DNA of 64,000 nucleotides from Chlorobaculum limnaeum (GTDB lineage: Bacteria; Bacteroidota; Chlorobiia; Chlorobiales; Chlorobiaceae), in the NCBI RefSeq assembly GCF_001747405.1, contig NZ_CP017305.1, forward strand, positions 1-64,000. The letters are read 5' to 3'. This document shows positions 36,488-40,440 of the stretch, piece after piece (position 1 is the stretch's first letter; every line of letters starts with the position of its first letter). The notes under the pieces are model-generated. The model searched no databases. It was not told the origin of the DNA and saw only the letters and a list, made by a program, of their open reading frames with translations. A program made the position numbers and the translations under genes.

Positions 36488-39400
36488 ATGCCTGACCAAC
36501 CCCATCGCATCAGAATTCTCATCGCCTCGCCCTCCGATGTAAAGGATGAGCGGAAAGCGGCCATCGAGGTGATCCGAAGCTGGAATGCAGTGAACAACGC
36601 AGTCTTGCTCGAAGCGGTTGACTGGGAAACTTATGCCGCGCCTGAGAGTGGCGGAGAAGCACAGGAGAAAATCGACGAACAGATTGTCGATAAGTGTGAT
36701 TGTGCGGTGGGCATCTTCTGGACGCGAATTGGTACGCCAACGAAAGTTGCTTCCGGTGGAGCAGTCGAGGAGTTGCAACGGCTGGAAGGGCTGGGGCGCA
36801 AGACGATGGTCTATTTCTCTAATGCGGATGTGCCTCGAACCAGAATGGATTACGAGCAGCTCCAGCAGGTCGATGAATACAGAAAAAAGAGGGAAAAAGA
36901 GTCGCTTTGCTGGAGTTACGATACGGTTTCCAGTTTCGAGAAAGAGTTTTTTCGTCATCTGGGCATTCAGATTCCCCGCTGGTTTCCAGAGCTGTTTTCT
37001 TCCAAAGCATTTTCGGAAAAGGACATACCCACACCGATGTTCTGCGACCTCGCCCGGCGCTACCGCGCTACGCTGACCGAGGAGCTTGGGAAGCTCAAAA
37101 TGCTCGGCTCGCCGGACATCGATAGTGTACAGGTGCGGCTCGATGATACGTTTGTGCCGTTGCGTATTTCGCATACGTGGAAAACCGATGAGCGTTACCA
37201 TCGGCGGAAGCGGGAGGCGGCGATGCAGGAGGAGATGCGCCCGCATTCGCCGGATGAGCTGATGCGGCGGGTGTTTCCGGAGTATCGGCTGCTTTTGGTG
37301 ATCGGCGATCCGGGGTCGGGCAAGACGACGCTGATGAAGTATTATGCGTTGTGCTGCTTGCAGGGTCAGCAGGCGCGGCTGTTCGGCGATGACGCGGGTT
37401 CGGTGCGGGTCTTTTTTCTGCCGTTGCGGGAGCTGAAGCGCGATGATGCCGGGCAGTTTCTGCCTTTGCCGGAGCAGCTTTCGGTGTGGTCGCAGGCTCG
37501 CTCGAATGCCATCGATCCGGCGGTGTTCGACGGGTGGCTGCGCAATGCGGATGGCGCAAGGTCTCTCATGCTCTTCGACGGGCTGGACGAAATCAGCGAT
37601 CTCGAACGGCGCAAGGCGGCCTACTCGTGGATCGACCGCCAGCACAACGGGTTCAGCGAAACGTACTTCGTCGTCACCTCCCGCATGACTGGCTATCGCA
37701 AAACCGAGGGGGTTGAGCTGGAGGCAGACCACATCCGGGCCGATGTGATGGATTTTACGCCGGAGCAGCAGGCGGAGTTCCTCTCGAAGTGGTTCAGGGC
37801 GGCCTATTGCCGCGAGCTGTGCCCGTCCGGGACGAATCCGGAGGAGTGGCTCGAACGGAAGAAAAAGGAAGCTGAAGAGCGCACGAAGACCATCGTCGAG
37901 TATCTCGCCAAAGAGGAAAACCGGGGGTTGCGCGAGCTGGCTGCCATTCCGATGATGGTGCAGATCATGGCGATTCTGTGGAAAGAACGGGAGTATCTGC
38001 CGGGCAACCGGACGAAGCTCTACCGCGCCGCGCTCGACTACCTGCTGGAGTTTCGCGATGAGCGCCGCCTGATTCCGCCGCTGTTGCCTGCCGACAAGGC
38101 ACGCCTCGTGCTCTCGCCGGTGGCGCTCTGGATGCAGCAGGAGCTTGAGGCTGACGAAGCCGAACGCTCCGCCATGCACGCCGAGATGGAGAAGGTGCTC
38201 GGCACGCTCGACCATCCTCCCTCTGGCGAGGCTTTCTGCAAAAACCTGATCGATCGGGCGGGGCTGCTCGTCGAGCTGGGCGAGGAGCGCAAGGAGTACC
38301 TGTTCCGTCACAAGACTTTCCGCGAGTACCTCGCCGGAAGCCAGCTCACCGAAACAATCAAGCGCAACTCGGGGCTGATCGCGCCGCTGGTGGAGCACTT
38401 CGGCGAAGACTGGTGGAGCGAACCACTCACCTTTTTCATGGCCCAGGCCGATGCCGGAATGTTCGATAGCTTCATGGAAGCGCTGTTCGATTCGGAAGTC
38501 AGCGCCGAATTCTCCGTGAAACAGCAGACGCAGTTGCAGACGATGATCACCGAAGCTCCGCAGAAAACAACCAAAGCCTTGTGCCGGAAGCTGCTTCAGC
38601 CGGAGACATCGGCTAATCGTCAGCGGTATATCCTCGATTGTCTGAAGATGCTGGGGAAAGCAGATGCATTAGACGCTGTGAGTGCCTTCCAGTTGCAAGG
38701 GCGTGCTCATGACAGCGATATCGAACGCAAGGCTGAGGAGGTTGACAGTGTTTTAACTGATCAAATCATGGTCATGTTTGGGAAAGTGCTTCTCAAAGTC
38801 AGACCGGCAGGGGCCTCGAACATTATCTTCACTAATTACTTCGAGCACAAAGCCCAGTACATCCTGATTCCTGGCGGGAAATACATCTATTCACAGACAG
38901 AAAAAGAGGTTTCGATACCTGATCTTTATTTCGCGAAATACCCGGTGACGAACCGGCAGTATCGATCGTTTATCGATTTTCTGGCCGGAAAGCCGTCGGA
39001 GGCCGTGAATCGTCTTACCCTGAAAGCATACACCGATGCTCTGCATGAGCTGGCCAGCTCGGCAGACGACGCAGTGAAAGGTTTCAACAAATACCTGAAA
39101 GAAGAGCGCGACCTTGTCAATCGTTTCAGGTCAACTTATGACGACGACAGAAAATTCAATAAGGACGAGCAGCCGGTGGTAGGCGTAAGCTGTTTCGACG
39201 CAAGGGCTTACTGCCTGTGGCTGTCGATGCTCTCCGGCAGTGAGTACCGCTTGCCGACGGAAGAGGAGTGGGAGTGGGCTGCCGGAGGCAGGCGCGAAGA
39301 GCCGGGCAAGGTATTGTCTGTGAAAAAGTATCCTTGGAGCGACAAGCCTGAACCGACACCGAAGCACGCCAACTTTAATGGGAACGAAGGGGCTACCACC

Positions 39401-39649
39401 CCGGTCGGGCGCTATCCTGATGGAGCGACCCTGGAGGGGCTGTACGATATGGCAGGTAACGTCTGGGCGTGGACAGGGAGTCGGTACTCAGAAGATACAT
39501 CCGCCGTTTCTTTGCGCGGCGGGTCGTGGAGCAGCATTCCGGAGGATCTGCGTTGTTCGGCCCGGCACTACTACTATCCGGACAACCACTACTTCAACGA
39601 CTTCATTGGTTTTCGAGTTGTTCGCCCTAGTCCAAAAATGAATATCTGA
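36488..39649 (+). CDS. DUF4062-like/NACHT/FGE-fold STAND protein with DGR-like variable tail
   Basis: 1053-residue predicted cytoplasmic protein. Residues 1-110 begin IRILIASPSDVKDERKAA and look like the DUF4062 / TIR-like N-terminal domain of STAND proteins. A NACHT NTPase follows with Walker A IGDPGSGKTTLMKYY (about residue 272) and Walker B LMLFDGLDEIS (about 361). Residues 795-1050 are a formylglycine-generating-enzyme-type C-type-lectin fold: LYFAKYPVTNRQYRSFI, YRLPTEEEWEWAAGG, LYDMAGNVWAWTGS and RGGSW...GFRVVR. The last segment carries aromatic and polar residues at the positions randomised in DGR target proteins. It is divergent from iorAB. The lectin domain probably recognises a ligand and the NACHT domain relays it; both are inferred. 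Confidence 0.87.
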   Translation: MPDQPHRIRILIASPSDVKDERKAAIEVIRSWNAVNNAVLLEAVDWETYAAPESGGEAQEKIDEQIVDKCDCAVGIFWTRIGTPTKVASGGAVEELQRLEGLGRKTMVYFSNADVPRTRMDYEQLQQVDEYRKKREKESLCWSYDTVSSFEKEFFRHLGIQIPRWFPELFSSKAFSEKDIPTPMFCDLARRYRATLTEELGKLKMLGSPDIDSVQVRLDDTFVPLRISHTWKTDERYHRRKREAAMQEEMRPHSPDELMRRVFPEYRLLLVIGDPGSGKTTLMKYYALCCLQGQQARLFGDDAGSVRVFFLPLRELKRDDAGQFLPLPEQLSVWSQARSNAIDPAVFDGWLRNADGARSLMLFDGLDEISDLERRKAAYSWIDRQHNGFSETYFVVTSRMTGYRKTEGVELEADHIRADVMDFTPEQQAEFLSKWFRAAYCRELCPSGTNPEEWLERKKKEAEERTKTIVEYLAKEENRGLRELAAIPMMVQIMAILWKEREYLPGNRTKLYRAALDYLLEFRDERRLIPPLLPADKARLVLSPVALWMQQELEADEAERSAMHAEMEKVLGTLDHPPSGEAFCKNLIDRAGLLVELGEERKEYLFRHKTFREYLAGSQLTETIKRNSGLIAPLVEHFGEDWWSEPLTFFMAQADAGMFDSFMEALFDSEVSAEFSVKQQTQLQTMITEAPQKTTKALCRKLLQPETSANRQRYILDCLKMLGKADALDAVSAFQLQGRAHDSDIERKAEEVDSVLTDQIMVMFGKVLLKVRPAGASNIIFTNYFEHKAQYILIPGGKYIYSQTEKEVSIPDLYFAKYPVTNRQYRSFIDFLAGKPSEAVNRLTLKAYTDALHELASSADDAVKGFNKYLKEERDLVNRFRSTYDDDRKFNKDEQPVVGVSCFDARAYCLWLSMLSGSEYRLPTEEEWEWAAGGRREEPGKVLSVKKYPWSDKPEPTPKHANFNGNEGATTPVGRYPDGATLEGLYDMAGNVWAWTGSRYSEDTSAVSLRGGSWSSIPEDLRCSARHYYYPDNHYFNDFIGFRVVRPSPKMNI
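39512..39625 (+). other. Candidate DGR variable region (VR)
   Basis: Encodes LRGGSW to FRVVR, the region altered in FGE-type DGR targets. Between the fixed RGGSW, RCSAR and PDN blocks, almost every variable codon is one that AAC or AAT can reach by changing only A: AGC AGC ATT (39530-39538), CAC TAC TAC TAT (39566-39577), CAC TAC (39587-39592) and GAC (39599-39601). The third base stays C or T. This is the signature of adenine-specific mutagenesis by a DGR. The matching template repeat is not in the window. Confidence 0.7.
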
Positions 39650-39682
39650 TACTCTGGTTTCTGATAATTTGAAAGGAGGTGG

Positions 39683-39867: not shown

Positions 39868-40092
39868 ATGAAAGTGACAACCAAAGGGCAGGTGACGATT
39901 CCTGTTGACATAAGGAAAAATTTGGGGATAGAGCCGGATACCGAAGTGGATTTTGTGCAGGAGGGGGATCGCGTCATTCTGGTAAAGCGGAAAAATGCCG
40001 CGCCCGCGAGCCGCACGTTTAAAAAGCTGCGAGGGGTTGCGACGGTCAGGATGACGACAGACGAAATCATGGCGCTGACCAGAGAGTCATGA
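39868..40092 (+). CDS. AbrB/VapB-type antitoxin
   Basis: 74-residue DNA-binding antitoxin. The SpoVT/AbrB-like N-terminus is clear in MKVTTKGQVTIPVDIRKNLG (the swapped-hairpin fold), followed by EPDTEVDFVQEGDRVILVKR. The C-terminal part would wrap the cognate toxin. It overlaps the toxin start by four bases (ATGA) and is likely autoregulated through the palindrome in its promoter. The toxin gene is damaged, so this is probably an orphan antitoxin now. Confidence 0.85.
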   Translation: MKVTTKGQVTIPVDIRKNLGIEPDTEVDFVQEGDRVILVKRKNAAPASRTFKKLRGVATVRMTTDEIMALTRES

Positions 40093-40440
40093 ACGGACTA
40101 CTGGTCGGAGTCCGCTCTTTCTGACTATGCTGTCCGCACCACCTTATTCATCAATCCAGTCATCTATTCCGAAATTTCCATTGGCTTTGAAAAGATCGAG
40201 GAGCTGGAGGCAGCGCTGGCGAAAAGCGGATTGCAGATGCTGGACATTCCGAAGGAGGCCCTTTTTCTTGCTGGCAAAGCGTTTCTCAACTACCGAAAGC
40301 ACAAAGGCGAAAAGCGCTCCCCGTTGCCTGACTTTTTTATCGGAGCACATGCCGCCGTCTCTGGTCTCGAATTGATCACACGAGATAAAAACAGGTATCA
40401 AACTTACTTTCCGACATTCAGAATCATTGCTCCTGAATAA
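40089..40440 (+). pseudogene. VapC-type PIN toxin, N-terminus deleted (pseudogene)
   Basis: The ATG at 40089 reads MNGLLV, the usual start of a VapC (next would be DTN), but then runs GVRSF and stops at 40122. The body of the toxin continues in the +1 frame as DYWSESALSDY... to the stop at 40438-40440, including LPDFFIGAHAAV and LELITRD with the later PIN acidic residues. The segment holding the first catalytic aspartate is missing. One sequence, CTACTGGTCG (40098-40107), encodes both LLV in the first frame and YWS in the second, as expected from a deletion between two copies of that decamer. A 69-residue start at 40231 would lack most of the fold. Confidence 0.75.

Follow-up and report, generated by a model that had tools for sequence, protein, structure and literature searches.

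Probable orphaned targets of a diversity-generating retroelement among the NACHT sensors of Chlorobaculum limnaeum

The tail of a NACHT sensor gene in Chlorobaculum limnaeum (positions 39512-39640) is, judging from its sequence, probably the true variable region (VR) of a diversity-generating retroelement (DGR) target that is now orphaned and fixed, the machinery having been lost while three sensors were kept. The VRs of at least two of these three sensors look as if they were written by a DGR, and the sensors themselves look frozen. Positions refer to the window, the initial 64 kb of a 2,797,276-base single-contig genome with a completeness of 99.98%.

The gene, here copy A (36488..39649, + strand), encodes a 1053-aa protein that had been predicted to combine DUF4062-like, NACHT and FGE domains, and Pfam matches agree with this architecture, the DUF4062 score lying slightly under the cut-off. 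The DUF4062-like N-terminal domain (36512..36742, +) has a Rossmann/TIR-like alpha–beta model that is not discriminating, as a fold search matched many alpha–beta folds, TIR included. The NACHT (STAND) NTPase domain (37286..37801, +; E=2e-13) contains the P-loop GDPGSGKT. It is followed by an FGE-sulfatase/C-type-lectin-fold domain (38861..39625, +; E=2e-41), and in a profile comparison it also resembles a DGR variable protein of known structure from Treponema denticola (2y3c; E=5e-14). The AlphaFold model of this domain, with a mean pLDDT of 48.6, was too poor for placing the VR on a structure.

The VR core of copy A (39530..39607, +) has slot codons at 39530-39538, 39542-39547, 39566-39577 and 39584-39604. 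The motifs RGGSW, RCSAR, PDN and GFRVVR are all present, and the codons between them are of the NNY type (AGC AGC ATT; GAT; CAC TAC TAC TAT; AAC CAC TAC TTC AAC GAC TTC). The original prediction that every intervening codon is reachable from AAC or AAT by adenine changes stands for these codons, with one qualification at 39542, where GAG ends in a purine and the template codon of relatives is GAA or GAC, not AAY. Otherwise the tail follows the template repeat (TR) layout of relatives codon by codon, with NNY at AAY slots. At the conservative AAY slots, which were taken from the TRs of relatives and not chosen from copy A itself, the third base is C or T in 7/7 cases in A and 7/7 in C, against 48% of codons over the whole of gene A; across genomes, 286/302 such slots end in C or T in the group that has an RT and 105/112 in the group without one. 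Between PDN and GFR (39584-39607), copy A is two NNY codons longer than the TRs of relatives, which could reflect slippage in an AAC-rich template.

Complete DGRs accompany homologues of this protein in relatives. We surveyed 86 genomes of the same bacterial family, 55 of which have homologues, and in eight genomes examined more closely (G027, G034, G065, G054, G062, G064, G083 and G084) a TR and an RT of ~345 aa adjoin them, in the order target, ~110-aa Avd-like ORF, TR, RT. TR/VR pairs were found by script, and mismatches were scored at template adenines. The share of mismatches at TR adenines in the cleanest pairs was 23/23 and 17/17 (G027), 16/16 and 14/14 (G034), 20/20 (G065), and 12/12 and 19/19 (G054), and in the pairs of G062, G064, G083 and G084 mostly 12-16 mismatches fall on adenines, a few pairs also having a single change elsewhere. 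Scoring over the full TR, without choice of the best segment, gave 0-2 non-adenine mismatches in most pairs and 4 in the worst. The full-length homologues of G084 and G062 that adjoin a TR and RT are ~53% identical to the window protein. A single TR can fit remote targets, one ~75 kb away in G034 and another on a different contig in G064. The proposed DGR origin of the tail thus gains support from these TR/VR pairs, together with the adenine-restricted divergence between orthologues described below.

Three full-length paralogues, 43-53% identical, occur in the genome: A in the window, B (G000:C1:408,375-411,476) and C (G000:C1:992,719-995,832). In comparisons of A with its orthologues in G014, G007 and G042, codon positions 1/2 were changed in 13, 15 and 14 of 16 template-adenine slots, whereas among the 19 constant codons the counts were 0, 2 and 2 (p from 4e-7 to 5e-6). 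The variation thus sits at adenine slots and is not scattered across constant codons and third bases; upstream of the VR the pattern is ordinary, with third bases the most diverged. In G014 the orthologue appears as a pair of overlapping ORFs, probably owing to a frameshift or an assembly error. Within the 24-codon VR, the 15 changes that separate copy C from a 92%-identical G008 copy are all nonsynonymous (0 synonymous), against dN 0.045 and dS 0.149 upstream of it, which argues for recent retrohoming in this lineage. With another G008 copy, only 49% identical upstream, C has the same third base throughout the VR. Overwriting from a common template would explain this pattern, as ordinary drift would not; the main alternative is recombination confined to the tail. 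A and C pass the test for adenine-restricted variation and B does not: 9 of its 19 constant codons are changed, its tail has no clear pattern, and it may have left the system long ago or never have been a good target. Outside the VR, all three copies have a dN/dS of 0.16-0.30, and the proteins A, B and C are therefore constrained now or were until recently.

It is possible, although unlikely, that the VRs were imported ready-made from DGR-bearing relatives by homologous recombination or gene transfer, so that this lineage never needed the machinery. The constant VR codons of C equal those of the G008 copies, although identity over the remainder of the gene is just 49-92%, a state that tail-confined recombination could also produce, and both mobile DGRs and remote targets have been described (PMC3521204). 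Set against this, copy A is syntenic with G007 and G014, where the same ArsA and PIN genes lie alongside, and its set of slots differs in every orthologue; diversification in place is the simpler account, if not a strong exclusion of import. Downstream, C tracks G008 as far as the start of avd and no further. In A, the end of the gene and the spacer that leads from VR to avd (39641..39676, +) are likewise shared with copy C and orthologues (82-89%), and beyond about 39676 the similarity to the DGR loci ends.

The machinery itself is missing. It had been noted that the window holds neither an RT nor a template repeat; we found none there, and no DGR RT or TR in the rest of the genome. Pfam RVT_1 identifies two RTs genome-wide, a CRISPR RT–Cas1 fusion (L010 6243-8480) and an AbiP2-type defence RT (L009 6508-8022), and a DGR RT query of the single contig matched the RT–Cas1 alone, with no RT of the DGR clade. 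Searches for a TR by DNA, by an adenine-tolerant pattern (one letter of which was wrong, with 3 mismatches allowed), with the TR of a relative and with an inferred TR found none in the window or elsewhere in the genome; the relative's TR matched VR-C and VR-A, with no other significant match. The inferred TR was derived from VR-C, which makes its 18/18 fit to VR-C circular, but its fits to three G008 copies (18/18, 20/21 and 21/22) are not. Across 21 genus genomes the inferred TR matched no near-identical template, those present in G004 and G017 being of a different type. The avd genes of relatives had no match at the loci of A, B and C, and an avd'-alkD fusion of G008, searched across the genus, matched in this genome through its alkD part alone. 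Close to copy B lies a four-helix TIGR02436 protein (L007 7168-7770) that was weighed as a candidate Avd and set aside; it fits the four-helix-suffix family, and the avd genes of relatives do not match there. Within the genus, homologues of the window protein occur in 9 genomes and a DGR RT in just two (G004 and G017), an absence that is firm for single-contig genomes only, as several of the RT-lacking genomes are drafts.

The original prediction left a choice between a DGR serving in trans and a fossil, and of the two the fossil, or orphaned, state fits better; supply in trans would need an element that is absent from the assembly, such as a plasmid or prophage whose DGR still diversifies A and C. 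We consider this quite unlikely. Prosthecochloris aestuarii, a member of the same family, has a conjugative plasmid that bears a DGR with Avd and FGE targets, a TR in relatives can serve a target 75 kb off or on a separate contig, and VR-C is very fresh. However, the single-contig genome has no matching TR or DGR RT, 0/21 genus genomes carry a matching TR, and the repeat in the FGE tails of the P. aestuarii plasmid is of another type. The earlier statement that the sensor 'is diversified' at present is accordingly unsupported for this genome. As a counterpoint to orphaning, the slots of the nearest orthologues of A have diverged, though these draft genomes also have no visible DGR, and diversification therefore either lasted until fairly recently or came from outside. 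Ordinary variability of the FGE domain, with no DGR involved, is very improbable: the fold is common to many non-DGR enzymes and this genome lacks a DGR, but the restriction to adenine slots, the validated DGR homologues and a non-DGR FGE paralogue with nearly fixed slot residues in three relatives all stand against it, and the slot test contradicts it.

Under the orphaned-target reading, a DGR RT in an ancestor or close relative would have copied the TR with adenine mutation, and the mutated copy would have overwritten the VRs of several NACHT–FGE sensor genes, some of them remote, as seen by sequence in relatives. RT and TR would later have been lost from this genome, with sensors A, B and C retained under purifying selection. 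From the order of the domains, the lectin fold may bind a ligand through the fixed VR face, the NACHT domain may oligomerize and the DUF4062 domain may act as the effector; most likely the A, B and C proteins still work as STAND/NLR-like receptors, with a putative role in defence. The only sources of new variants would now be ordinary mutation, recombination and the renewed acquisition of a DGR. A further reading, less likely than not, is that retroelement-made, NLR-like variants outlive the lost mutator and persist under purifying selection as a fixed set, adaptive-style diversity passing into innate receptors as the mutator comes and goes within one genus.

Parts of this picture are already known. 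Targets of RT clade 5D DGRs include STAND/NACHT proteins with a C-type lectin, and Chlorobi are among the hosts discussed (Dore et al. 2024, PMC10907252); like copy A, these targets join a NACHT NTPase to a C-terminal, DGR-diversified lectin domain, and there are often several, some remote. In the present genome the machinery is absent, and the protein begins with a DUF4062-like domain. Two or four VRs per DGR have been described in Chlorobium phaeobacteroides and Pelodictyon phaeoclathratiforme, with remote VRs discussed (Schillinger et al. 2012, PMC3521204); these too are green sulfur bacteria, but RT and TR are present there. The closest parallel for targets that remain after RT and TR have gone comes from Treponema denticola isolates without core components, in which orphan DGR targets were read as remnants (PMC4891356), whereas the orphans of the present case are NACHT sensors under purifying selection, and they occur in more than one species of the genus. 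The same tripartite layout of effector, STAND NTPase and sensor is known from antiviral STAND (Avs) and bacterial NACHT defence proteins (PMC10907252); here the sensor is an FGE/lectin domain, and the effector is putative, as is a role in defence. In the part of the literature that was searched, no description of NACHT sensors orphaned in this way came up for the green sulfur group, and we regard them as an unusual, testable state: a complete small genome has DGR-written, NLR-like sensors and no mutator, while its relatives still possess one. Comparison between them opens questions about the usefulness of frozen DGR-made receptors, their ligands and the frequency with which the mutator disappears and returns.

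A second type of DGR occurs in the same family (L074, L078 and L122), with a CRSA...GFRLVF tail, its own TR and an RT ~38% identical to that of the first type. The plasmid pPAES01 of P. aestuarii DSM 271 has genes for a DGR RT and Avd, together with two genes of the FGE family (L210 7039-11574). In several genomes, extra targets are followed by incomplete copies of avd (L104 9484-9828 and 13155-13505; L107 4062-4271; L076 11547-11738; L121 5457-5633). Most of these copies end abruptly near codon 57-70, a hint of a shared route for the duplication of satellite targets. The avd halves of G008 and G012 were considered as scars of a deleted local DGR and set aside, given that truncated avd also trails extra targets in the DGR-positive G083 and G041; they may be mere marks of duplicated satellite targets. 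Downstream of copy A (39868-40440), the AbrB/MazE-like antitoxin gene (39868-40092) is intact, and the PIN-type toxin gene after it is out of frame; relative to its intact orthologues in G014 and G007, it lacks ~55 bp near the start.
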